From NCBI RefSeq assembly GCF_004346865.1, contig NZ_SMGR01000005.1, positions 1-64,000 of the forward strand: a DNA stretch of 64,000 nucleotides, written 5' to 3'. This document shows positions 51,539 through 63,562 of the stretch, piece by piece. The DNA comes from Shimia isoporae (GTDB lineage Bacteria; Pseudomonadota; Alphaproteobacteria; Rhodobacterales; Rhodobacteraceae). The number at the start of each line of letters is the position of its first letter. The first letter of the stretch is position 1. Below the pieces are notes generated by a model. It did not search any database and had not been told where the DNA came from. It saw only the letters and a list, made by a program, of their open reading frames with translations. A program made the translations under genes and the position numbers.

Positions 51539-52294
51539 TCAGTCGAAGGTCGCTTGAATATTTGCCGACGTTTCCAAGAGGGCTTGTTCGATTACATCCC
51601 GGTGTTCGGCAAATCTTGACGAAGGCACCGGCACGGAAATGGCGTGCAGGTCGCCCGACCAATCCGAGAATGCAAAGCCAACCGCGGAGACTCCCGACGA
51701 GTGTTCGTCCATGTCATAAGCCAGCCCCGTTTGTCTCACCCCATGCAACTCCTGCAGAAAGGCCGTCTCGTCGGCTTTGGCGGCGTTTCGATCCCATTCG
51801 TTGCGGGCCAATTTGAGAGCTTCACCCTCTTCTAGTGCCGCGAGGCAGGCTTTACCGTTTGCCGTTGTGGTTAGCGGAAAGACTTCCCCGACTTGAGAAA
51901 TCGTGGTGAGACGATGGGTGCCGGGCACCTGATCCAGAAACACCATGCCGATGCCGCGCATAACCGCAAGGTCCGTTGTCTCGCCCGTCTTGTGGGTCAA
52001 TTCGGTCAACAACAAGCGACAATGCTCCACGATGTTGTACTGCGCAGCCCCCGCCAAAGCCGCAAGCTCCGGTCCGAGCACGAGCCCCCGTCCCTGCGGC
52101 GCGCTGATCACCAGGTTTTCCTCAATCAAAGCGCTGGTGATTCTCTGCACCGTAGAGCGGGGCAAATCGACCCGCGATGCGATCTGCCCGAGGCTCAACC
52201 CCATTTGCGTATCTTTCAAAGCGCGCATGATTGCCGCTGCCCGAGAAATGACCTGAATTCCAGATTTTTGATTTTTCTCATCTAATTCAGTCAT
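51539..52294 (-). CDS. IclR family transcriptional regulator of the cyclase/BKACE operon
   Basis: This 251-residue protein has an N-terminal winged helix-turn-helix (about 15-75, SLGQIASRVDLPRSTVQRI) and an effector domain with GEVFPLTTTANGKACLAAL and FSDWSGDLHAISVPVPSSRF. It is divergent from the cyclase-to-BKACE operon across 215 bases that hold three similar ACCGCAWTR motifs, so it likely represses or activates that operon. Confidence 0.93.
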   Translation of the reverse strand: MTELDEKNQKSGIQVISRAAAIMRALKDTQMGLSLGQIASRVDLPRSTVQRITSALIEENLVISAPQGRGLVLGPELAALAGAAQYNIVEHCRLLLTELTHKTGETTDLAVMRGIGMVFLDQVPGTHRLTTISQVGEVFPLTTTANGKACLAALEEGEALKLARNEWDRNAAKADETAFLQELHGVRQTGLAYDMDEHSSGVSAVGFAFSDWSGDLHAISVPVPSSRFAEHRDVIEQALLETSANIQATFD

Positions 52295-52355: not shown

Positions 52356-52409
52356 ACCGCAATACGGGTCATGTCAACCGCATTGTGAACTTTTTTGTTG
52401 ACCGCATTG
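52356..52409. promoter_or_regulatory. Three-fold ACCGCAWTR repeats in divergent IclR/cyclase region
   Basis: ACCGCAATA (52356) and ACCGCATTG (52377 and 52401) recur with starts 21 and 24 bases apart, about two helical turns. Spacing and location between a regulator and its probable target suggest regulator-binding half-sites. The first copy lies in a partial palindrome with CGGGT. Confidence 0.6.
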
Positions 52410-52509
52410 CGATGCATCTGCATCACTAAGCGGGACAGGTGGGAGGAGCCACCCTGACAATTTGAACAACGAAACGCCGTCCCTTCGGCGAACAGAGGAG
52501 ATATGCCTG

Positions 52510-53346
52510 ATGGTTGAAATCCGCGGCATCGAGTTCCAGGCGAACACTGACAACGACATGGGAATCGAGTTCTACAACCTGAGCCATCGCTTCGGTTTCC
52601 AATGCCCGAACTGGCCTTACTTCAAAGACGTACAGATCGACCGGAAGCACTACATGGCCAAATCCGGCGTGTTGTCCCAGACGATCACAACCACCATGCA
52701 CGTGACGACGCACATCGACGCGCCGGCCCACGTCGTGCAGGGCACACCGTTCATCGACGAAGTACCTTTGCCCCATTTCTTTGGCTCCGGCATCGTGGTG
52801 AGCATCCCGAAGAAAAAATGGGAACCCATAACGGCAGACGATCTGGAAAAGGCCTGCGGTCACGCCATTCGCCCCGGCGACGTGCTGATCATCAACACGG
52901 GTTGGCACAAGGAGTACGAAGACGGAGATTATTTCGCCTACTGCCCCGGTCTCGTGAAATCCGCGGGAGAGTGGATGGTCGAAAAAGGTATCAAGGTCGT
53001 CGGCCACGACACGCAGGCCAATGACCACCCGCTTGCCACCGCCATCGGCCCACAGCGCAACGGCCCGATCATGCCCCACCTTGAGCAGGAGTATTTCGAA
53101 TGGTCCGGTGGCCGTGACTGGAAAGACGATTTTCCGGAATGGGAGCCGGTGCACAACGTCCTGTTCAACAACGGCATTCTCGGCATCGAAAACGTTGGCG
53201 GCGATCTGGACGCTGTCACCGGCAAGCGCTGCACATTCGCCTTTTTCCCATGGAACTGGGATCGCGGCGACGGCTGCATCATCCGCCTCGTGGCGATGAT
53301 CGACAAAGGACAGCAGTATCGCATCGAAGCAGGCGAAAACTTCTGA
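52510..53346 (+). CDS. Cyclase family metal-dependent hydrolase (kynurenine formamidase-like)
   Basis: This 278-residue protein belongs to the cyclase/KynB fold. The metal site is His64-x-x-x-His68-x-Asp70-x-x-x-His74 (HVTTHIDAPAH), where the usual HxGTHxDxPxH has Thr in place of Gly. DVLIINTGWHKEY and KVVGHDTQANDHPLA are further conserved blocks. Relatives hydrolyse N-formylkynurenine, cyclic imides, isatin or lactones. The start at 52510 has AGGAG nine bases upstream, and the ATG at 52503 leads straight to a stop. It opens the operon that ends in BKACE. Substrate unknown. Confidence 0.88.
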   Translation: MVEIRGIEFQANTDNDMGIEFYNLSHRFGFQCPNWPYFKDVQIDRKHYMAKSGVLSQTITTTMHVTTHIDAPAHVVQGTPFIDEVPLPHFFGSGIVVSIPKKKWEPITADDLEKACGHAIRPGDVLIINTGWHKEYEDGDYFAYCPGLVKSAGEWMVEKGIKVVGHDTQANDHPLATAIGPQRNGPIMPHLEQEYFEWSGGRDWKDDFPEWEPVHNVLFNNGILGIENVGGDLDAVTGKRCTFAFFPWNWDRGDGCIIRLVAMIDKGQQYRIEAGENF

Positions 53347-53360
53347 TTTCCACCCCGACT

Positions 53361-53388
53361 GGCCGCCGCCAACGGTGGCGGCCTCTTT
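53361..53388 (+). terminator. Hairpin between cyclase and cupin genes
   Basis: GGCCGCC / GGCGGCC (loop 53368-53376 with further CC/GG pairing) is followed by TCTTTT. It looks like an attenuating terminator that lowers the downstream message compared with the cyclase gene. Confidence 0.65.
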
Positions 53389-53404
53389 TCCAAGGACAGG
53401 CAAA

Positions 53405-53764
53405 ATGCACGTCAAACGCTTTCAGGATGCGCAAGCATACGACGCCCCGAACCATTTCGGCTGCCATGGCCTACGCCTTCAGGGTTTTGAGGAAAACGGG
53501 CCTCAAAACCAGTGGATTGGCTTCAGCCAGTTTCTACCGGGCGGCGGCGCGGGACCGGACAGCACTCCCTTTGAAAAAGTCTATGTGGTCCTTGAAGGCG
53601 AAATGACCGTGATCATCGAAGGTCAGGAAACCGTGCTCGGCCAATACGACAGCTGCACAATCCCGCCCGATGAAGTGCGTACGATCGAAAACCGCCGCAA
53701 CGACATCTGCAAGATGCTCGTTGTGATCCCCTACCCGCCCGCAGCTCAACCGGAGACCAAATGA
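53405..53764 (+). CDS. Small cupin-domain protein
   Basis: This 119-residue single-domain cupin has the motifs EKVYVVLEGEMTVIIEG (residues about 50-66) and YDSCTIPPDEVRTIENR. Classic metal-binding histidines of cupin motif 1 are largely absent, so it may be an isomerase/lyase, a sensor or structural protein rather than an oxygenase. The ATG at 53405 is chosen. The stop overlaps the SDR start (ATGATG). It is probably a pathway enzyme or accessory acting on the same substrate. Confidence 0.8.
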   Translation: MHVKRFQDAQAYDAPNHFGCHGLRLQGFEENGPQNQWIGFSQFLPGGGAGPDSTPFEKVYVVLEGEMTVIIEGQETVLGQYDSCTIPPDEVRTIENRRNDICKMLVVIPYPPAAQPETK

Positions 53765-54561
53765 TGACCGTGATGGCCGACCCTCTCTCCATGTTCAACG
53801 TTGATGGCCAGGTTGCCCTGATCACCGGTGCCTCAGGAGCATTCGGCATGGTCGCAGCCCGCATTCTCGCCGGCGCCGGCTGCAAACTGGTTCTTGCCGC
53901 AGGCAACCAGTCCGCGCTGGATGATATCACTGCAGAGTGCCGTGAAATGGGCGCGGATGTTGTCGCCCTGAACGTCCGGCCCAGCGACGAAGCCGCCTGC
54001 GAAACACTCGTGCAGGAGGCAGTCCGGGCTTTCGGCCAACTCGACATTCTTGTTGTCGCATCCGGTATGAACAAGGTTGCCTTGATCAACGACATGGCGC
54101 CGGAAACCTTCACAGGTGTGATGGACGCAAATGTCACGCAATCCTGGCTTCTGGCGCGTTCGGCCGCCGGACAGATGAAAGCGCAGGGCAACGGCGGGAA
54201 AATTGTTCTGGTTTCCTCGGCACGCGGTCTTCTGGGACACCCTGCTGGCTATACAGCTTACTGCGCATCTAAAGCCGCAGTGGATGGCATCACAAAGGCA
54301 CTGGGCTGCGAACTCGGCCCGACGGGCATCACCGTTAATGCCATCGCGCCCACCGTATTCCGGTCACCGCTTACCGCCTGGATGTACGAAGACACCGACG
54401 AGGCAACAAAGGTCCGCAACGGCTTCCTCGCGCGTGTGCCCAAAGGCCGCCTTGGCGAACCCGAGGATCTGGCTGGCCCACTCCTGTTCCTCGCCTCCAA
54501 GGCATCCGATTTCTACACAGGGCATATCCTTTATGCCGACGGCGGCTACACGGCGGGCTGA
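53761..54561 (+). CDS. SDR family oxidoreductase
   Basis: This 266-residue SDR has LITGASGAFGMVAARIL for cofactor, VVASGMNKVALINDM, serine in LVSSARGLLGHPAGY and YCASK. The cupin gene overlaps it by four bases and the 3-hydroxyacyl-CoA dehydrogenase-like gene follows at once. It probably oxidises or reduces a hydroxyl group in the same pathway. A FabG-like or gluconate 5-dehydrogenase-like label would be only a general guess. Confidence 0.88.
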   Translation: MMTVMADPLSMFNVDGQVALITGASGAFGMVAARILAGAGCKLVLAAGNQSALDDITAECREMGADVVALNVRPSDEAACETLVQEAVRAFGQLDILVVASGMNKVALINDMAPETFTGVMDANVTQSWLLARSAAGQMKAQGNGGKIVLVSSARGLLGHPAGYTAYCASKAAVDGITKALGCELGPTGITVNAIAPTVFRSPLTAWMYEDTDEATKVRNGFLARVPKGRLGEPEDLAGPLLFLASKASDFYTGHILYADGGYTAG

Positions 54562-54564
54562 TTG

Positions 54565-55491
54565 ATGACACGCTCAGAAAACATCGCAGTCATCGGCGCC
54601 GGTCTCATGGGGCACGGGATTGCACTGACCATGGCTCGCGCGGGTCATTCTGTTACGATCACCGACCCGATTGACACCGCCCGCGAGACCGTAAAGGACC
54701 GCGTTGCGCAAAGCCTGTCAGCTATGGGCTGTTCTCCGGCCGAGACAGCTCGCACGCTGCCACGTATCTTTGTGAAATCTACCACAGCAGGTGCTGTCGC
54801 GACGGCGTCTGTCGTGTTCGAGGCGGCGCCTGAGAAAATGGCGCTGAAACAGTCGATCTTTGCCGAGATCGAGGCCCACGCCTCTGAAACCTGCATTCTG
54901 GCGTCCAACACGTCGGTCATGCCCATAACCGAAATCATGACAGGCCTGCGCCTGAAATCCCGCGCCCTAGGCACCCACTGGTGGAACCCGCCGCACATGA
55001 TCCCGTTGGTAGAAGTCATAAAGACTGCCGACACGGATCCTTCCGTCGCACAAAGGATGTTTGATCTCCTGCACGGCGCGTCAAAAACACCGGTGATGGT
55101 CGAAAAGGACGTACCTGGCTTTATCGGAAACCGCCTTCAACACGCCCTCTGGAGGGAAGCCGTCAGTCTGGTTGAGAACGGCATCTGCGACGCTGAAGCT
55201 GTTGATACAGTTATCAAATCCAGCTTTGGAAGACGGCTGGCCGTGCTCGGCCCGCTGGAAAACGCAGATCTCGTGGGCACGGACCTCACTCTCGATATTC
55301 ACGAAAACGTCCTGCACGACATCGAGGCGCGACAAGGTCCGTCTCCCTATCTGCAAACCCTCGTAGCCGAGGGAAACCTCGGCATGAAATCGGGACAAGG
55401 ATTCCGCAGTTGGTCCGACGAAGAAGCCAACGCGGTGCGGGCGCGTGTCGCCAGCCACCTCACCAAACTCGAGACCATTCTGGATACCTGA
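54565..55491 (+). CDS. 3-hydroxyacyl-CoA dehydrogenase-like (beta-hydroxy acid dehydrogenase)
   Basis: This 308-residue protein has the N-terminal NAD motif VIGAGLMGHGIALTMARAGH (residues 9-28), SNTSVMPITEIM, the catalytic His137 in GTHWWNPPHMIPLVEV and the C-terminal 3HAD helical domain (NRLQHALWREAVSLVENG). It has the length of single-domain members such as L-gulonate 3-dehydrogenase or carnitine dehydrogenase, with no enoyl-CoA hydratase part. It presumably oxidises a 3-hydroxy acid to the 3-keto acid used by BKACE. ATG 54565 is chosen over TTG 54562. Substrate unknown. Confidence 0.88.
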   Translation: MTRSENIAVIGAGLMGHGIALTMARAGHSVTITDPIDTARETVKDRVAQSLSAMGCSPAETARTLPRIFVKSTTAGAVATASVVFEAAPEKMALKQSIFAEIEAHASETCILASNTSVMPITEIMTGLRLKSRALGTHWWNPPHMIPLVEVIKTADTDPSVAQRMFDLLHGASKTPVMVEKDVPGFIGNRLQHALWREAVSLVENGICDAEAVDTVIKSSFGRRLAVLGPLENADLVGTDLTLDIHENVLHDIEARQGPSPYLQTLVAEGNLGMKSGQGFRSWSDEEANAVRARVASHLTKLETILDT

Positions 55492-55530
55492 AAATCACCC
55501 GGCGGGGAGGCCGGGACAAGGGAGGACCAC

Positions 55531-56811
55531 ATGACGAAGACTTTCAGAAAACCCTCACGCCGCGCATTTCTTGCCGGAGCCACCGCGGCGCTTGCGACGC
55601 CGGCCTTGCTGAAGTCCACGCGGGCCTACGCGGCCACGCCAACACTCAAAGTGGGGCATGTCAGCCCGCGCACCGGCCCGCTCGCCGGATTTGCCGAAGC
55701 CGATGACTTCGTGCTCAAGGGCATCGAAGCCGCCATGTCTGCCGGACTGGAAAACAACGGCAAGAACTGGAATATCGAGATCATCTCGAAGGATAGCCAG
55801 TCTAACCCGAACCGCGCCGCCGAAGTCGCGGCCGACCTGATCCTGGGCGAGGAAGTCGACATTATCGTCGCCGCTTCCACACCGGACACGGTGAACCCCG
55901 TTTCTGATCAGGCTGAAATCAACGAAGTGCCTTGCATCACGACAGACTGCCCATGGCAGCCTTACTTCTTTGGCCGCAACGGCGTTCCCGGCGAAGGCTT
56001 CGCCTCCACCTACCACTTCTTCTGGGGCCTCGAAGACGTGATCGGCGCTTTTCTCGACATGTGGGGGCAATCGGGTGCTGCCAAGAAAGTTGGTGGACTT
56101 TTCCCCAACGACGCCGACGGCAACGCCTGGGGCGACAAGGAACTGGGTCTGCCGAAACCTCTCGCCGCGGCTGGCTACGATCTCATCGATCCGGGCCGCT
56201 ATCAGCCACTTTCCGACGACTTCTCCAACTACATAGCTGCCTTCAAGGACGCCGGCTGCGAAATCGTCACCGGCAACATGATCCCGCCTGACTTCGCGAC
56301 CTTCTGGGCGCAGGCCGCTCAACAGGGTTTCAATCCCAAAGTGGTTACCATTGGCAAAGCCCTTCTCTTCCCGTCCGTCATAGAAAGTCTCGGCGACCGT
56401 GGCGACGGCCTGACATCCGAGGTCTGGTGGTCCCCCAACCACCCGTTCGCCTCCTCATTGACAGGCGCATCAGCCAAGGATCTGGCAATGGGCTACACTT
56501 CGGAAAGCGGTCGCCCATGGACCCAGCCCATCGGGTTCAAACACGCCCTGTTCGAAGTGGTCGCGGACGTCGTGAAACGCGCCGAAGATCTTGAAGATCC
56601 GGAAGCGATCGTTGCCGCCATCGCCGGCACCAATCTCGACACAATTGTTGGCCCCGTGAACTGGGCTAACGGCCCGATCAACAACGTCACCAAAACACCG
56701 CTTGTGGCCGGCCAGTGGCAGAAGGCGGGAGATGCCTTCGAGTTGCAGGTGGTCGCCAATGCCAATGCTCCGGAAATTCCGGTCACGGCCGATCTGAAGC
56801 TGCTTGGCTGA
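55531..56811 (+). CDS. Liv-type ABC transporter substrate-binding protein with Tat signal
   Basis: This 426-residue binding protein of the branched-chain amino acid/amide family begins with a Tat-type leader SRRAFLAGATAALATPALL, cleaved near ARAYA. The mature part starts LKVGHVSPRTGPLAGFAEAD, as in Liv-type receptors. Tat export means it may fold before translocation. The preceding ribosome-binding site GGGAGGA is strong. It belongs to the only complete importer in this operon and should bring in the pathway's substrate. Confidence 0.92.
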   Translation: MTKTFRKPSRRAFLAGATAALATPALLKSTRAYAATPTLKVGHVSPRTGPLAGFAEADDFVLKGIEAAMSAGLENNGKNWNIEIISKDSQSNPNRAAEVAADLILGEEVDIIVAASTPDTVNPVSDQAEINEVPCITTDCPWQPYFFGRNGVPGEGFASTYHFFWGLEDVIGAFLDMWGQSGAAKKVGGLFPNDADGNAWGDKELGLPKPLAAAGYDLIDPGRYQPLSDDFSNYIAAFKDAGCEIVTGNMIPPDFATFWAQAAQQGFNPKVVTIGKALLFPSVIESLGDRGDGLTSEVWWSPNHPFASSLTGASAKDLAMGYTSESGRPWTQPIGFKHALFEVVADVVKRAEDLEDPEAIVAAIAGTNLDTIVGPVNWANGPINNVTKTPLVAGQWQKAGDAFELQVVANANAPEIPVTADLKLLG

Positions 56812-56831
56812 TATTCCCAAGCACTTCCGTC

Positions 56832-56861
56832 GCGCGGCGCCAAGGTCCCTCGGTGCCGCGC
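56832..56861 (+). terminator. Hairpin between binding protein and livG-like genes
   Basis: GCGCGGC / GCCGCGC with additional CC/GG pairing (56832-56861) occurs 20 bases after the stop of the binding protein and ahead of the ATPase gene. There is no T-run. It fits the same pattern as the other four binding-protein genes in the window. Confidence 0.65.
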
Positions 56862-56879
56862 ACATCAAAAGAGCAGACA

Positions 56880-57608
56880 ATGACACCACTCCTCAAACTC
56901 ACCAACCTGCAAAAAGCGTTCGGCGCGGTCACTGTGGCCGACAATCAAAGTTACGAAGTCATGCCCGGCGATGCATTGGGTGTGCTGGGCCCTAACGGGG
57001 CTGGCAAAACGTCAATGTTCAATCTGATCACTGGCACGCTCAAACCAAATGGCGGATCGATCCACTTTGACGGCAAAGACATCACCAATTGGAGCGCCGC
57101 CAGACGCAGCCACTCCGGCATTGCGCGCAGCTTTCAGGTGCCGCAACCGTTTTCCGGCATGACTGTCTTTGAAAACGCGATGATCGCCGCCACACAGTCT
57201 GCGGGACTGCACGGCCATGCTGCGGAAACGCTCTGTCTCGACGTGCTCGATCAAACCGGGCTGATGTCCAAGGCCAATGTGCTGGCCGGAAGTTTGACCT
57301 TGCTGGAACGCAAGCGCCTTGAGTTGACCCGCGCTCTTTGCACCACCCCCAAACTCTTGCTGCTCGATGAAATCGCAGGTGGTTTGACCGAGGCGGAATG
57401 CCAGTCGCTCATAAAAACGATCAAGGACATTCACGCCGGTGGCGTAACCATCATCTGGATCGAACATGTCGTACACGCGCTGCTCTCGGTGGTCGATCGC
57501 CTGATCGTAGTGGATTTCGGCAAGCTGATCGCCGAAGGCCCTCCAAAGGACATCATGGAAAGCCCGCAGGTCAAAGAAATCTATCTGGGGATCGAAGCCG
57601 ATGCCTGA
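56880..57608 (+). CDS. ABC transporter ATP-binding protein, LivG-like
   Basis: This 242-residue ATPase has Walker A GPNGAGKTSMF, RSFQVPQPFSGMTVFEN, a degenerate signature (LTLLERKRLELTRAL in place of LSGGQ) typical of this LivG subgroup, and Walker B LLLLDEIAGGL. The start at 56880 is preferred to the upstream frame. It overlaps the LivF-like gene by eight bases. Confidence 0.92.
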   Translation: MTPLLKLTNLQKAFGAVTVADNQSYEVMPGDALGVLGPNGAGKTSMFNLITGTLKPNGGSIHFDGKDITNWSAARRSHSGIARSFQVPQPFSGMTVFENAMIAATQSAGLHGHAAETLCLDVLDQTGLMSKANVLAGSLTLLERKRLELTRALCTTPKLLLLDEIAGGLTEAECQSLIKTIKDIHAGGVTIIWIEHVVHALLSVVDRLIVVDFGKLIAEGPPKDIMESPQVKEIYLGIEADA

Positions 57609-58308
57609 GACCATTCTCATTATGAACGGGCTAAACGCCCACTACGGCGACTTTCAAGCTCTCTACGGCGTAGACATGCACATCGACGCCGGCGAGATTC
57701 TCGCCATCATCGGAGCCAACGGAGCGGGCAAAACAACGCTGATGCGCTCCATCACCGGACTGCTGAAAAACGGCGCGAACCAGATACTGCATGCGGGTGC
57801 CGACATCGGTGGACTGCGCGCAGACGAAATCGCCACACGCGGTATCGCCATGGTGCCGGAAGGTCGCCAGCTCTTTCCCTCCTTGTCGGTAAAGGAAAAC
57901 CTGATGATCGGCGCGCAAGTCGGGCGTAAGGGCCCATGGGATTTGCAGGCGGTCTACAAACTCTTCCCCATTCTGGAAGAACGCAAGGACCAGCAGTCCA
58001 CATCGCTGTCGGGAGGCCAGCAACAAATGGTCGCCATCGGCCGCGCCCTGATGTCCAACCCCGATCTTATCCTTTTTGACGAGATCAGCCTCGGCCTAGC
58101 ACCGGTCATCATCAAAGACATCTACCGCGCTCTGCCCGGCATCATCGGCGAAGGCATGAGCGCCATCATTGTAGAGCAAGACATCGCACAGGCGCTGAAA
58201 GTCTCCTCAAGGGTCTACTGCCTCCAAGAAGGCCGCGTCTCGCTCGAAGGCGCATCTGACACAGTTTCGCGCGAGGAAATTTCCCGCGCCTATTTCGGGA
58301 TCGAATAA
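57601..58308 (+). CDS. ABC transporter ATP-binding protein, LivF-like
   Basis: This 235-residue ATPase has Walker A GANGAGKTTLM, signature LSGGQQQMVAIGRAL, Walker B LILFDEISLGLAP and VEQDIAQAL. It pairs with the LivG-like ATPase and starts within its end. Confidence 0.93.
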   Translation: MPETILIMNGLNAHYGDFQALYGVDMHIDAGEILAIIGANGAGKTTLMRSITGLLKNGANQILHAGADIGGLRADEIATRGIAMVPEGRQLFPSLSVKENLMIGAQVGRKGPWDLQAVYKLFPILEERKDQQSTSLSGGQQQMVAIGRALMSNPDLILFDEISLGLAPVIIKDIYRALPGIIGEGMSAIIVEQDIAQALKVSSRVYCLQEGRVSLEGASDTVSREEISRAYFGIE

Positions 58309-58309
58309 T

Positions 58310-59173
58310 ATGGATTGGCTGAACGCAATCGTGCAAGGCACGCTTCTGGGCGGTCTCTATGCCCTCTTCGCGGCTGGTTTGTCGCTGATTTTCGGCGTCA
58401 TGCGACTCGTTAATATCGCGCACGGCGATCTCATCGTACTCGGCGCGTACCTCGGCCTGACCGTGACCACGGCCACGGGACTGCACCCGCTGATGGCGCT
58501 CGCCATCGTCGTACCGGCCATGGCCCTCATCGGCTACGTCCTGCAACGCGGACTGCTCAACCAGACGCTCGGTGATGATCTGTTGCCGCCGCTTCTGGTC
58601 ACATTCGGCCTCAGCGTTATCATTCAGAATGCCCTTCTCGAAGGCTACACTGCCGACCCGCAAAAACTCTCGGCCGGAGGACTGGAAACCGCCAGCTTCG
58701 CCGTCGGCGGCCTCACCCTCGGCGTGTTGCCTGCCGTGACCTTTGCCATTGCGATTGCCGTGATCTGGGGGCTGCAATGGGTGTTTTACCACACCGCTCT
58801 CGGTCGCGCCTTCCGTGCTGTGTCCGACAATCAGGACATCGCGCAACTGATGGGCTTAAACAAACGCCACATATTCGGTCTCGCTATGGCCCTTGCCCTG
58901 GCTGTCACGGCGGTTGCAGGCATCCTTCTGGGCATCCGCACAAGCTTCGATCCCTCAATCGGCGGCGGCCGCCTGATCTTCGGCTTCGAAGCCGTCATCA
59001 TTGGCGGGCTGGGCAATCTTTGGGGCACTTTGGCCGGTGGCGTCATCCTCGGCGTGGCCCAAACGATCGGAGCGAAAATCGATCCCGGCTGGCAAATTCT
59101 CGCAGGCCACATCGCCTTCCTGATCATTCTCGCCGTACGCCCCAACGGCCTCTTCCCGAGGATTTCAGCATGA
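58310..59173 (+). CDS. ABC transporter permease, LivH-like
   Basis: This 287-residue LivH-type permease has about eight helices and the family's FGVMRLVNIAHGDLIVLGAYLG near the N-terminus (VNIAHGDL) and GLNKRHIFGLAMALA in the ATPase-contact region. It begins one base after the LivF-like stop and overlaps the LivM-like start by four bases. Confidence 0.93.
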   Translation: MDWLNAIVQGTLLGGLYALFAAGLSLIFGVMRLVNIAHGDLIVLGAYLGLTVTTATGLHPLMALAIVVPAMALIGYVLQRGLLNQTLGDDLLPPLLVTFGLSVIIQNALLEGYTADPQKLSAGGLETASFAVGGLTLGVLPAVTFAIAIAVIWGLQWVFYHTALGRAFRAVSDNQDIAQLMGLNKRHIFGLAMALALAVTAVAGILLGIRTSFDPSIGGGRLIFGFEAVIIGGLGNLWGTLAGGVILGVAQTIGAKIDPGWQILAGHIAFLIILAVRPNGLFPRISA

Positions 59174-60183
59174 ACACCACCCCCTATTCCGTAACCCGAT
59201 CCTCACAAGCCGCCCGCATCGCGGCCATTCTCGGCGCAGTCACTCTGGTTGTCTTGATCGCCGCGCCCTGGTGGGCCGGTCGCGCCGACATGCGCCTGAT
59301 GGGAGAACTCTTCCTGTATCTGTCGCTGGCCACGCTCTGGAATCTCATGGCCGGATATGCCGGTCTGGTATCGGTCGGCCAACAGGCCTACGTCGGCTTT
59401 GGCGGTTACATGCTCTTTGCCCTAACCATGTTCGGCGGGCTGCATCCGCTTGCCGCAATCGCACTCGCGGGCATTCTGGGCGCTCTGATCTCCATTCCGG
59501 TCGCCGTGCTGATCTTTCGTCTGCGTGGCGCTTACTTTGCCATTGGCACCTGGGTCATCGCCGAAGTCTTCCGGCTTGGCTTTGCACAGGTCTCTGCACT
59601 TGGCGGCGGCTCCGGTTCCTCTCTGCCAGTGGCGATCGTAAAGTCGTTGGCATCCAAACGCGCCATGCGCGAAAGCCTTTCCTACTGGCTGGCACTTGGC
59701 GCCGCAGTGCTTGTGATCTCCGCGGTCTACCTGTTCCTGCGCTCCCGCAAAGGGCTTGCCCTAACTGCGATCCGCGACAACGAAATGGCGGCCAGCAGCC
59801 TTGGTATCGACATATGGCGCACAAAATTCATCGTCTACGTCGTGACCTCGGCCTTCACAGCCATGATCGGCGCTTTGATCTTCCTACAGAAGTTGCGCAT
59901 CTCGCCGGATGCCGCGTTCTCCGTGAACGACTGGACCGCTTTTGTGATCTTTATCGTCGTGATCGGGGGCATCGGCACCATCGAAGGTCCGATCATAGGC
60001 ACTCTTGTCTTCTTCCTGCTGCGAGAAACGCTGGCCGACCTTGGCACCACCTACCTGATCGTTCTCGGCGTTGTGGCGATTGTGGTCATGCTCAAGGCCC
60101 CCAAAGGCATTTGGGGTCTGATCCGCAGCCGCTTCGAACTCCAGATATTTCCCCTCGGCTATCGCGTCACCAAACGCAACTGA
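59170..60183 (+). CDS. ABC transporter permease, LivM-like
   Basis: This 337-residue LivM-type permease starts at 59170 (ATGA overlap with LivH). The motifs LMAGYAGLVSVGQQAYVGFG and LTAIRDNEMAASSLGIDIW are present. It completes the importer of the cyclase/BKACE operon. Confidence 0.93.
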   Translation: MNTTPYSVTRSSQAARIAAILGAVTLVVLIAAPWWAGRADMRLMGELFLYLSLATLWNLMAGYAGLVSVGQQAYVGFGGYMLFALTMFGGLHPLAAIALAGILGALISIPVAVLIFRLRGAYFAIGTWVIAEVFRLGFAQVSALGGGSGSSLPVAIVKSLASKRAMRESLSYWLALGAAVLVISAVYLFLRSRKGLALTAIRDNEMAASSLGIDIWRTKFIVYVVTSAFTAMIGALIFLQKLRISPDAAFSVNDWTAFVIFIVVIGGIGTIEGPIIGTLVFFLLRETLADLGTTYLIVLGVVAIVVMLKAPKGIWGLIRSRFELQIFPLGYRVTKRN

Positions 60184-60201
60184 CACTAAGGAGCCGCCCC
60201 A

Positions 60202-61137
60202 ATGGCCAAGCAAAAAACCATCATCACCTGCGCAATAACCGGCGCAATTCATACCCCCACGATGTCCGATGCGTTGCCTTACACCTATGACGACATTGCC
60301 CAACAGGCGATGGACGCTGCCGAGGCCGGGGCTTCCATCCTCCATCTGCATGCTCGCGACAACGAAACCGGTGCGCCTTCGGTAGACCCAAACGACTTTG
60401 CTCCCTTCCTGCCGCGCATCAAACAGGCGACCGACGCCGTCCTCAACATCTCCACCGGCGGTTCGCTAACCCTCTCCATTCAAGACCGCATCACTCCGGC
60501 AAAAACCTTCTCGCCGGAAATGTGCTCCATGAACATGGGGTCGATGAACTTTTCGTTTCACCCTTTGGCAAATCGCTACAAAGACGACGACTGGAAGTTC
60601 GACTGGGAAAAAGACTACGTCGCCAACTCGGATCAGAATATCTTTCGCAACACCTTCCGCGACATCAAGGAAGCTGCCGATACACTGGCTCCGCACGACA
60701 TCAAATTCGAGCACGAATGCTATGACGTCGGACATCTGTACAACCTGAAATTCTGCATGGACATCGGCCTCTTCAAAGCCCCGATCTTCATCCAGTTTAT
60801 CTTCGGCATTCTTGGTGGCATTGGCCCCGAAGTCGACAACCTGATCTTCATGAAACGCACCGCCGACCGACTGTTTGGCGACGACTATCGCTGGTCCGTA
60901 CTCGGCGCAGGTGGAGCCCAGATGTCACTGGCCACCACCGCCAGCCAAATGGGCGGCAATTTGCGTGTTGGCCTTGAGGACAGCCTCTTCCTGTCACGCG
61001 GCAAACTCGCTGAAAGTAATGCCGCGCAGGTCTCGAAGATACGCCGCATCGTCGAAGACCTCGGATGTGAAGTGGCCACGCCGGACGAGGCGCGCGAGAT
61101 TCTGGATCTCAAAGGCGGGGATCGCGTGAATTTCTGA
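60202..61137 (+). CDS. Beta-keto acid cleavage enzyme (BKACE, 3-keto-5-aminohexanoate cleavage family)
   Basis: This 311-residue TIM-barrel protein has the N-terminal ITCAITGAIHTPTMSDALP, the zinc-binding HLHAR (His48, His50) and GALGGGGAQMSL-like GAGGAQMSLATTASQMGG near residue 235, followed by RVGLEDSLFLSRGKLAESNA, as in BKACE proteins. Such enzymes condense a beta-keto acid with acetyl-CoA and split it, yielding acetoacetate and a CoA ester (or the reverse donor pattern). AAGGAG lies eight bases before ATG. It completes the operon. Different BKACE groups act on keto-aminohexanoate, dehydrocarnitine, beta-ketoglutarate or others, and this one's substrate is open. Confidence 0.9.
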   Translation: MAKQKTIITCAITGAIHTPTMSDALPYTYDDIAQQAMDAAEAGASILHLHARDNETGAPSVDPNDFAPFLPRIKQATDAVLNISTGGSLTLSIQDRITPAKTFSPEMCSMNMGSMNFSFHPLANRYKDDDWKFDWEKDYVANSDQNIFRNTFRDIKEAADTLAPHDIKFEHECYDVGHLYNLKFCMDIGLFKAPIFIQFIFGILGGIGPEVDNLIFMKRTADRLFGDDYRWSVLGAGGAQMSLATTASQMGGNLRVGLEDSLFLSRGKLAESNAAQVSKIRRIVEDLGCEVATPDEAREILDLKGGDRVNF

Positions 61138-61196: not shown

Positions 61197-62099
61197 CTAA
61201 ATAGCTGCCACGGCACGCCTTATGTGCGCTTTCAAACCGGCCACGAGATCGGTTTCAACCTGACCATGGCGGCGCAATATACCTATGCTGCGCGACAGAC
61301 GCTGATCGGCGAACGGTACGAAATGCACATCAGCCGCCTTTCCCGCAGACTCCGGAACAAGGGCAACTCCGAGACCTTCCTGAACCATCTCAAGCGCGGT
61401 CGAAGTCCGCCCGACTTCGATTTGCCAAACCGCCGTTTGTCGCGCGCGCGCCATCGCCTCATCTATCAGCAAACGGTTGCCCGTGCCGCGCGCGGGCAAG
61501 ATTAGAGCCTCCTTTTGGAAGTCCCCCCAGTCCACCTGAGATTTCGTTTTCAACGGGTGCTTAGCGGGCACCGCCAAAACAATGCTTTCGTCAAAAAGCG
61601 GGTCGAATTCGATCGCCGGATCCAGTGCCGGAATAGACGAGATCCCGAAATCGGCATCACCCTCTGCGACGGCTTCCGCAACCTCATTCGCCGGTACGTC
61701 GATCACCCTGATCCTTGCCGATGGCCTACGCCCCCCGAACGCCTTGAGTGCAGGTATCACAATCCGCCCGATCACCGTCGGAATGCTTGCAACCGTGATT
61801 ACGGTGTTGCGTTGATGGGCAAATGCCACGCTTTCGTCCCGCATGGCGCGCGCCGTTTCCTCAGCATCCTGCAAAATTGCCTCCGCCCGCGCCTGCAAAC
61901 GCTTTGCCGCAAGCGTGGGTTTTACGGCGCGTGTGGTGCGTTCGAAGAGTTGGCTGTCCAACGCCTCTTCCAACTTCTGGATACGCCGCGTCACGGCAGA
62001 CTGAGAGAGATTAAGACGCTCGGAGGCGGCGTGGAACGACCCGGTTTCCTTCACGGCGAGAAACGCTTCCAGATCGCCGAAATCATAATTGATGCTCAT
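61197..62099 (-). CDS. LysR family transcriptional regulator
   Basis: This 300-residue regulator has an N-terminal winged helix-turn-helix (residues 1-65, HAASERLNLSQSAVTRRIQ) and a periplasmic-binding-like effector domain (about 90-295). It is divergent from tcuA, as TcuR is in Salmonella-like tricarballylate operons, and is therefore the probable TcuA/TcuB regulator. Confidence 0.92.
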   Translation of the reverse strand: MSINYDFGDLEAFLAVKETGSFHAASERLNLSQSAVTRRIQKLEEALDSQLFERTTRAVKPTLAAKRLQARAEAILQDAEETARAMRDESVAFAHQRNTVITVASIPTVIGRIVIPALKAFGGRRPSARIRVIDVPANEVAEAVAEGDADFGISSIPALDPAIEFDPLFDESIVLAVPAKHPLKTKSQVDWGDFQKEALILPARGTGNRLLIDEAMARARQTAVWQIEVGRTSTALEMVQEGLGVALVPESAGKAADVHFVPFADQRLSRSIGILRRHGQVETDLVAGLKAHIRRAVAAI

Positions 62100-62179
62100 G
62101 GCGCATCAATCCTCCACAATCAGACATTTGTCAAATCAACATAGCAGGCGTACCCAGGAAACAGCCAAGGAAACAAGCC
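62100..62179. promoter_or_regulatory. LysR/tcuA divergent promoter region
   Basis: Eighty bases between the two starts include a short palindrome ATTTG-T-CAAAT at 62126-62136, a candidate LysR-type site. Nothing else stands out. Confidence 0.45.
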
Positions 62180-63562
62180 ATGACGCAATATGATATCGCT
62201 GTGATAGGCGGCGGAAACGCAGCCCTTTGCGCAGCCATGACAGCCGCCGAGGCCGGTGCCAAAGTTCTTATTCTGGAAACCGCGCCAAAGGCATATCGCG
62301 GGGGGAACTCGCGGCACACCCGCAATTTCCGCTGTATGCACAGCGCCCCTCTCGGCCCTCTCGTAGACAGCTACTCTGAGGACGAGTACTTCGACGACCT
62401 GATGAAGGTCACCAAGGGCAAGACCGACGAAACCCTCGCTCGATTGGCCATTCGCACGTCCGAAGAATGCCTTCCTTGGATGGAAGAACACGGCGTGCGT
62501 TTCCAGCCCAGCCTGTCCGGCACACTCTCTCTGGCGCGCACAAACGCCTTTTTCATGGGCGGTGGCAAAAGCTTGGTGAACGCTTACTACCGAACCGCCG
62601 AGAAGCTCGGCGTGGATGTGTTGTACGAGGCGGCAGTGACCCATCTGGAACTCGATGGCGACCGCATCGCATGGGTCGACTACACCCACGAAGGCCAACC
62701 GCACCGCATCAGCCCCAAATCGGTCGTCGTCGCATCCGGCGGGTTTCAGGCCGACACCGACTGGCTCACCCGTGCTTGGGGTCCCGCAGCCAAGAACTTC
62801 CTGATCCGTGGCACACCCTACAACCGAGGGGTCGTGCTGGCCGACCTTCTGGAACAAGGCATCAATCAGGTGGGTGACGCGGACCAGTGTCACGCTGTCG
62901 CCATCGACGGCCGCGCTCCCAAGTTTGACGGAGGCATTGTAACGCGCCTTGACTGCGTACCTTTCTCGATCGTTGTCAACAAAGAGGCCGAGCGCTTTTA
63001 TGACGAGGGCGAAGATGTCTGGCCAAAGCGTTATGCCATATGGGGCAGACTCGTGGCCGCACAACCCGATCAGGTCGGCCATGTGGTGATCGACAGCAAA
63101 TCCATCGACCTTTTTATGCCCTCGGTTTTCCCGCCGCTCAAAGCTGACACCCTCGAAGATCTCGCAGAACTGATGGGAATTGACGGCTCCAAACTCAAAG
63201 CCACAGTCGATACCTTCAATGACGCCTGCGGTGACACGTCCGGTTTCCATCCGACCGAACTCGACGGCGTCGCCACCTCCGGCCTGACGCCGCCCAAAAC
63301 CAACTGGGCCCGCCCGATCACCGAGCCCCCGTTTTACGGGTACTCGTTGCGCACCGGTGTGACCTTCACCTACCTCGGCCTCAAAGTCGACGAAAACGCC
63401 CAGTGCAGCACCGCCAACGGCCCCGTCAAAAACCTGTGGGCCGCCGGAGAAACCATGGCCGGATCCATTCTCGGACAGGGCTATCTCGCCGGTTACGGCA
63501 TGACCATCGGAACCGTCTTCGGACGCATCGCAGGCCGGGAGGCCGCCGCCCATGCAAGTTGA
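62180..63562 (+). CDS. tcuA: FAD-dependent tricarballylate dehydrogenase TcuA
   Basis: This 460-residue flavoprotein of the succinate dehydrogenase/fumarate reductase group has IAVIGGGNAALCAAMTAAEAG for FAD, RGGNSRHTRNFRCMH, ASGGFQADTDWLTRAWG and GSILGQGYLAGYGMTIG. It is proposed to oxidise tricarballylate to cis-aconitate, with TcuB reoxidising the flavin. The next gene, TcuB, overlaps it by eleven bases, which strongly supports the assignment. Confidence 0.88.
   Translation: MTQYDIAVIGGGNAALCAAMTAAEAGAKVLILETAPKAYRGGNSRHTRNFRCMHSAPLGPLVDSYSEDEYFDDLMKVTKGKTDETLARLAIRTSEECLPWMEEHGVRFQPSLSGTLSLARTNAFFMGGGKSLVNAYYRTAEKLGVDVLYEAAVTHLELDGDRIAWVDYTHEGQPHRISPKSVVVASGGFQADTDWLTRAWGPAAKNFLIRGTPYNRGVVLADLLEQGINQVGDADQCHAVAIDGRAPKFDGGIVTRLDCVPFSIVVNKEAERFYDEGEDVWPKRYAIWGRLVAAQPDQVGHVVIDSKSIDLFMPSVFPPLKADTLEDLAELMGIDGSKLKATVDTFNDACGDTSGFHPTELDGVATSGLTPPKTNWARPITEPPFYGYSLRTGVTFTYLGLKVDENAQCSTANGPVKNLWAAGETMAGSILGQGYLAGYGMTIGTVFGRIAGREAAAHAS

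Follow-up and report, generated by a model that had tools for sequence, protein, structure and literature searches.

A conserved operon of Shimia isoporae with a probable role in the import and reductive degradation of phloroglucinol

Introduction

Which compound is taken up and broken down by the products of a compact catabolic operon of the alphaproteobacterium Shimia isoporae? The operon lies at positions 52510-61137 of the first 64,000 nucleotides of contig NZ_SMGR01000005.1 (assembly GCF_004346865.1); this whole stretch, called here the window, comes from a 236 kb contig of a 4.2 Mb genome. An earlier note, prepared from the letters of the window, had proposed there an undescribed unit of nine genes for a cyclase-family hydrolase, a cupin, an SDR, a 3-hydroxy acid dehydrogenase (3HAD), an importer and a BKACE, and had held its substrate not to be deducible. 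In our opinion the substrate may be deduced, and is most likely phloroglucinol (1,3,5-trihydroxybenzene), a ring compound that plants and brown seaweeds commonly contain. We regard it as highly probable, judging from the genes present and their conserved residues, that the operon would import this compound and degrade it reductively, without oxygenases.

Degradation of phloroglucinol was reconstituted from four enzymes of Clostridium scatologenes, PGR, DPGC, TfD and TAL (PMC10470551, cited throughout from the part of its text available to us). In that pathway, phloroglucinol is reduced by an SDR (PGR), dihydrophloroglucinol is opened through C-C (retro-Claisen) hydrolysis by a Mn-dependent cyclase-family enzyme (DPGC), a 3HAD (TfD) gives rise to triacetate, and a BKACE (TAL) yields acetoacetate and acetoacetyl-CoA (PMC10470551). 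The four catabolic families of the window correspond to this set one to one; none is missing, and only the cupin is left over. It is this match that points to phloroglucinol, and it also takes the label 'undescribed' from the four catabolic enzymes, which are those of a published pathway. Because PMC10470551 already places a homologous cluster in marine alphaproteobacteria, our finding adds one more case to a known pathway; it has transport of its own and, in the cupin, a conserved partner that is unexplained. Besides that paper, nothing on this operon was present among the listed matches of literature searches on phloroglucinol degradation and phlorotannins.

Results

Open reading frames and family profiles placed ten tightly packed genes, all open and all on the + strand, between positions 52510 and 61137, in the order cyclase, cupin, SDR, 3HAD, binding protein, two ATPases, two permeases and BKACE. 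All genes named in the earlier note were recovered in their co-directional arrangement, with the count corrected from nine to ten. Of the several four-base overlaps mentioned in it, two remain, in the pairs cupin/SDR (53761-53764) and permease/permease (59170-59173), and the two ATPase genes overlap by eight bases (57601-57608). The 3HAD gene starts with ATG at 54565 and the first ATPase gene with ATG at 56880. The G+C content, read in 2-kb steps, is 0.57-0.60 across the operon, at the upper end of the range of the window (0.54-0.60).

The SDR (53761-54561) would be the phloroglucinol reductase. Its best solved relative, 5g4k/5g4l, scored 181.4 bits, 39 bits ahead of the different protein ranked after it (142.8). 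We take this relative to be the Clostridium phloroglucinol reductase; the search names it as an SDR only, and the available text of the C. scatologenes study bears no PDB code. The window protein and 5g4k are 41% identical and have in common the substrate loop PTVFRS-LT-WM, which is kept in at least 81 of 87 aligned rows.

Ring opening would fall to the cyclase-family hydrolase (52510-53346; PF04199, 117.6 bits), a putative dihydrophloroglucinol cyclohydrolase (DPGC). Residues Trp20 and Tyr22 of the C. scatologenes enzyme, CsDPGC, were reported to set DPGC apart from isatin hydrolase (PMC10470551). They are matched by W35 (90/90 aligned rows) and Y37 (88/90) of the W-P-Y stretch at positions 35-37 of the window protein; the alignment was made through a homologue from Acetoanaerobium noterae (locus L129), CsDPGC being known from its reported positions, and this clostridial relative has its Trp and Tyr at exactly 20 and 22. 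From the 'ring or amide opening' of the earlier note, ring opening by the cyclase was retained, and amide or lactone opening was given up, the published step being a C-C hydrolysis. Kynurenine formamidase was rejected as a reading (41.3 against a cut-off of 223.05). The AlphaFold model of the cyclase, with a mean pLDDT of 46.3, was not used.

The 3HAD (54565-55491; 3HCDH_N 167.9 bits, 3HCDH 72.9 bits) is the candidate (S)-3-hydroxy-5-oxohexanoate dehydrogenase (triacetate-forming). Its S117, H138 and N189 occur in 86/86 rows, and their spacing of 21 and 51 is that of Ser122, His143 and Asn194 reported for CsTfD (PMC10470551). A role in vitamin B6 breakdown was considered and dropped: the best NCBIfam match of the 3HAD, FHMPC dehydrogenase, reached 238.1 against a cut-off of 500; its best solved match was 4om8, and other B6 genes were not searched for. 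A 3HAD and a BKACE also occur together in carnitine breakdown, and the 3HAD fold is common to carnitine dehydrogenases, so that a carnitine-like or other quaternary-amine pathway could be proposed for the operon. We consider this extremely improbable, as the 3HAD stayed far below both carnitine models (150.5 bits for carnitine 3-dehydrogenase, with a cut-off of 592, and 124 for the other model, with a cut-off of 414), the carnitine pathway has no ring to open, and the nearest solved BKACE is BKACE15. The parallel to carnitine drawn in the earlier note thus comes down to the shared 3HAD fold.

The last gene (60202-61137) encodes the BKACE (PF05853, 348.7 bits), predicted to act as a triacetate (3,5-dioxohexanoate) acetoacetate-lyase. 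Its nearest solved relative is BKACE15 of Paracoccus denitrificans (8RIO/8RIP/9HNF; 377.8 bits for 8rio), whose confirmed substrates include 3,5-dioxohexanoate, next to beta-ketohexanoate, 5-hydroxy-beta-ketohexanoate and others (PMC11961710, likewise cited from the part of its text available to us). The likeness ends at the physiological role of BKACE15, which that source states as unknown, with a genetic context suggesting aromatic degradation. Two of these substrates, 3,5-dioxohexanoate and 5-hydroxy-beta-ketohexanoate, would also suit an open-chain or lactone route, in which the cyclase would be a lactonase acting on 3,5-dihydroxyhexanoate lactone, the SDR and 3HAD would oxidise both hydroxyls, and the BKACE would cleave 3,5-dioxohexanoate. 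Although chemically consistent with the families, such a route leaves unexplained the nearness of the SDR to 5g4k and its substrate loop, the DPGC-type Trp and Tyr of the cyclase, and the chalcone-isomerase, phloretin-hydrolase-like and intradiol dioxygenase genes near relatives of the operon (see below); we find it very unlikely.

Conservation of the operon was assessed in a BKACE-centred search of named genomes, in which the best 80 of 484 relatives were kept, that is, close relatives only. The full set of eleven genes (counting IclR) has the order and orientation of the window in 65/80 of these loci, which come from other genomes; the gene grouping is thus far beyond chance. In two more (L069 and L074) all eleven genes are present but rearranged. 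The other 13 comprise nine cut by a contig end, two without parts of the block (L059 and L079), one lacking cupin and SDR (L077) and one with the whole core but without the importer (L087). The cyclase is 85-94% identical across the BKACE-centred loci holding one.

In an even sample of the order, the cyclase was found at E <= 1e-20 in 29/292 genomes, own genome included, which is a patchy distribution. In 27 of these 29, the contig with the cyclase also bears, at a distance of 7.5-8.1 kb, a BKACE of at least 77% identity; the two exceptions are due to a contig end (G155) and to an operon stopping within the SDR gene (G248). Beside this truncated copy (L112:8196-9941), 3HAD, importer and BKACE were not matched in the 19 kb read. 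Two BKACE genes of at least 77% identity are without an adjoining cyclase (one in G148 and a second copy in G097). Since the BKACE family at large is far commoner (120/292 genomes at E <= 1e-60), the cyclase goes together with this orthologue group and not with BKACE enzymes as a whole. Beyond the order, the cyclase is seldom met with: it was detected at E <= 1e-40 in 3/385 genomes of a class sample (own genome and two from other families), and at E <= 1e-20 in 7/398 genomes of a phylum sample (own genome, two members of the same family and four more remote ones, one of which, G565, has a 34% relative with the other core genes not nearby).

Among 106 loci scanned, 89 bear a full-length cyclase. 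Within 10 kb of it, relatives of the cupin, SDR and 3HAD were present in 87 loci each, of the BKACE in 84, of IclR in 85 and of the binding protein in 75; these figures are no unbiased rate, because BKACE similarity guided the choice of most loci, contig ends truncate several of them and at least one genome enters the count twice (L078/L111). A search with the cyclase only gave ten plasmid records, and all seven that were opened contained a cupin match. The constant core is cyclase-cupin-SDR-3HAD-BKACE, mostly with IclR. These neighbourhoods bear out the suggestion that cyclase and cupin regularly accompany the BKACE. As to whether cyclase, cupin and 3HAD are scattered without the BKACE and the importer, the link to the BKACE is kept, and the importer is absent or replaced in some relatives.

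The cupin (53405-53764; Cupin_2, 41.8 bits) accompanies the cyclase across phyla, and no second match to it was found in the own genome at E <= 0.01. Its start is more likely ATG 53405 than GTG 53375, because Met is present there in 88/89 cupin rows (window included) and AAGGA lies upstream. The best structural match of its model (mean pLDDT 78.2) is the Mn cupin TM1459, whose metal His positions read D62, T64, K68 and R102 in the window protein (numbered from 53375), one of these being matched to what we take to be the fourth metal ligand of TM1459. In the same numbering the near-invariant residues are H27, W47, K68 (87/89 rows), Y70 and R102 (89/89). As the metal histidines are replaced and K68 and R102 are nearly fixed, the cupin, conserved as it is, is not a classical metal cupin. 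The name 'beta-D-galactosidase' was rejected for it (95.2 against a cut-off of 175).

The C. scatologenes cluster, so far as the available text of PMC10470551 describes it, resembles the operon in the co-location of the same four enzyme families, with the cyclase Trp/Tyr and the 3HAD residues kept. The window has, in contrast, a Liv-type ABC importer, where the wording in PMC10470551 is 'a major family transporter', as well as IclR, a non-metal cupin, a long-type BKACE with Ile for Trp and an SDR without TR(S/N); no thiolase, CoA-transferase or kinase is present among the window genes at 49.5-64 kb. In A. noterae, homologues of cupin, SDR, 3HAD, cyclase and BKACE were found at 48, 39, 45, 36 and 33% (tblastn), but the BKACE is of the short type, the SDR is of another kind, and there is no IclR or Liv importer match. 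The gene after this core set is a marginal phloretin-hydrolase match (22.1 bits, below the cut-off of 22.7), and a chalcone-isomerase-domain gene lies three genes further on (195.6 bits, cut-off 25); neither gave an NCBIfam match at 1e-10. These neighbours would be of the enzyme kinds that yield phloroglucinol from flavonoids.

Plasmids pSWIT02 of Rhizorhabdus wittichii RW1 and pLA3 of Novosphingobium pentaromativorans bear cyclase-cupin-SDR-3HAD-BKACE in the same order as the window; they differ from it in having no Liv importer match, and in RW1 a hydroxyquinol-dioxygenase-annotated gene adjoins the set. In RW1 and in Aminobacter MSH1 the set lies near annotated hydroxyquinol/intradiol dioxygenase and iron-containing alcohol dehydrogenase/maleylacetate reductase genes, whose NCBIfam matches were all sub-threshold. 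An MBL-fold hydrolase is inserted in the operon in Pacificitalea (as annotated) and Aminobacter (L128:12912-13895 and L130:15394-16362). A plasmid of Rhizobium sp. ACO-34A (L131:11171-17118) carries two tandem cyclases, SDR, 3HAD, a fumarylacetoacetase-annotated gene and a cupin, with no BKACE match; this variant perhaps serves a related substrate. A distant cyclase (24-25% identity) lies directly beside another BKACE (65-67%) in three loci (L118:9073-10595, L120:8720-10252 and L121:9320-10870); this suggests that a second pathway with cyclase and BKACE exists in the order.

The importer, announced in the earlier note as a binding protein with a full ABC system, is indeed complete and of the five-part Liv type. 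Its periplasmic binding protein (55531-56811; Peripla_BP_6, 139 bits) has a twin-arginine-type leader, SRRAFLAG (read by eye), and is followed by ATPases of LivG type (56880-57608) and LivF type (57601-58308) and by permeases of LivH/UrtB type (58310-59173) and LivM/UrtC type (59170-60183), all four assigned by family profile matches. The only solved relative of the binding protein at E <= 0.001 is 4ey3/4eyg/4eyk, presumably an aromatic-acid binder of Rhodopseudomonas. The importer is replaceable: G350 (L105) has a more distant Liv importer on the far side of the BKACE, an MFS gene is placed inside the operon of Novosphingobium pLA3, and no Liv importer match was found in the RW1 or Planktomarina (L087) copies.

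An IclR-family regulator was said to stand beside the operon, and it does, divergently, at 51539-52294 on the - strand (IclR_C 111.6 bits, HTH_IclR 44.3 bits). The three exact matches to ACCGCAWTRYGR in the window (64 kb searched) all fall within 57 bp of the divergent intergenic region, at 52356, 52377 and 52401 (52356-52412), and these boxes are a candidate operator; since the motif was read off this same region, the test is partly circular. With one mismatch allowed, seven ACCGCAWTRYGR matches were found in the window, not above chance (mean 5.22; 27/100 shuffles reach 7). A close variant, ACCGCATTGCG, is present in 20/72 intergenic regions (window included). Between cyclase and cupin, a strong GC-rich hairpin with a T-run (53361-53389, + strand) could be an attenuator or an RNA stabiliser; its 58-base region folds at -22.2. 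All 51 cyclase-cupin regions extractable of 70 fold at -12 or below, a figure with no GC-matched control, and 25 have TTTT. Perhaps the hairpin sets the dose of the cyclase apart from that of the remaining genes.

Downstream of the operon, at 61197-63562, lie a divergent LysR gene and a gene whose product, an FAD enzyme, scored 667.7 bits against the model of tricarballylate dehydrogenase TcuA (cut-off 369). This pair adjoins the operon but is not conserved beside it, and was dropped as a part of the unit; nor do the BKACE-centred loci keep the genes upstream of IclR next to the operon.

Discussion

With phloroglucinol as the substrate, transcription would start from the divergent promoter under IclR control, and the compound would enter the cell by means of the exported binding protein and the rest of the Liv-type ABC importer. 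The SDR would convert its keto tautomer to dihydrophloroglucinol, the cyclase-family metal hydrolase would open the ring by C-C hydrolysis to (S)-3-hydroxy-5-oxohexanoate, the 3HAD would oxidise this to 3,5-dioxohexanoate (triacetate), and the BKACE, with acetyl-CoA, would give acetoacetate and acetoacetyl-CoA. Both products could then be converted to acetyl-CoA by enzymes encoded at other places in the genome, a 3-oxoacid CoA-transferase and thiolases; seven thiolases above cut-off and one CoA-transferase subunit (216.3 bits against a cut-off of 128.5) were found there. Import, oxidation to a beta-keto acid and acetyl-CoA-dependent cleavage were, in our view, rightly foreseen in the earlier note; the order of steps proposed in it changes in that the SDR acts first, as a reductase, and is otherwise kept. 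Gene content, conservation and residue matches come from the present analysis, and the four enzymatic steps from the enzymes of C. scatologenes; we infer that the window proteins perform the same steps, and likewise the transported compound, the role and ligand of IclR and the role of the cupin.

Several observations weigh against this assignment. TR(S/N) was given as the NADPH motif of reductases in the phloroglucinol pathway (PMC10470551), and the SDR of the window reads AAGN instead, with AGN in all eight commonest motif variants (37/87 rows). Therefore, cofactor use may differ; we suppose that the SDR would work like PGR, with its cofactor left open, and claim no membership of the NADPH-type PGR subfamily. 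The SDRs of two distant clusters (L107 and L129) are without the shared loop, and therefore the SDR slot is not uniform. TAL was described as being without the Glu14 amine contact and, in CsTAL, as having Trp16 (PMC10470551); the BKACE of the window has Ile16 (99/102 rows), hydrophobic but not Trp, an equivalence read from the alignment to L129, with CsTAL known from the reported residue. It also belongs to the long type, and its identity to the short-type enzymes of L125 and L129 is only 31-33%. The BKACE passed NF053538 (3,5-dioxohexanoate:acetyl-CoA acetone transferase) with 533.3 bits, above the cut-off of 430, and so did 4/4 BKACE paralogues outside the operon (L116, L117, L118 and L123). 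This equivalog label looks too broad; because such paralogues also fit, its name is weak evidence, and we discounted it as a strong argument for the substrate. With 36.8 bits, the binding protein matches its one solved relative weakly. Finally, acetoacetyl-CoA synthetase (TIGR01217) stayed below cut-off in the own genome, a phloroglucinol-producing gene is absent from the operon, and PF18089 (phloretin hydrolase) was present in 4/292 genomes of the order, two of them with the cyclase, and absent from the own genome.

The departure of the SDR from 5g4k at the cofactor motif, at the identity given above, leaves room for the same chemistry on another ring, either phloroglucinol in a substituted form (methyl-, acyl- or phlorotannin-derived) or some other 1,3-cyclohexanedione, with phloroglucinol itself a poor substrate. 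BKACE15, which also accepts beta-ketohexanoate and others (PMC11961710), would allow for it, and the Rhizobium locus with two cyclases, no BKACE match and a fumarylacetoacetase-annotated gene suggests that variant substrates may exist. On the other hand, the cyclase varies little among the BKACE-centred loci and keeps W35 and Y37, and the published steps for unsubstituted phloroglucinol need exactly the four enzymes present. We judge another ring to be unlikely and retain phloroglucinol.

The most enigmatic member of the core is the cupin. No study of such a cupin was found among the listed papers that match both phloroglucinol and cupin, judged by titles and abstract openings, and the words 'cupin' and 'ABC transporter' are absent from the main text of PMC10470551. 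Our guess is that the protein is a binder or a tautomerase; as a tautomerase, it would supply the ketone form to the SDR or the right ring form to the cyclohydrolase. We propose tentatively, with more doubt than confidence, that this metal-free cupin is an overlooked fifth core member, e.g. a keto-enol tautomerase for the reductase or cyclohydrolase, and that the marine pathway is coupled to an ABC importer dedicated to phloroglucinol from brown-algal phlorotannins.

By this analysis, an operon whose substrate had been held unknown is turned into a directly testable prediction, phloroglucinol. The cluster occurs in about a tenth of the sampled genomes of the order and on plasmids of other orders. 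If our assignment is true, marine bacteria of this group would hold an oxygenase-free route, with a dedicated importer, for the monomer of brown-algal phlorotannins, and the phloroglucinol pathway would have a regular cupin partner.

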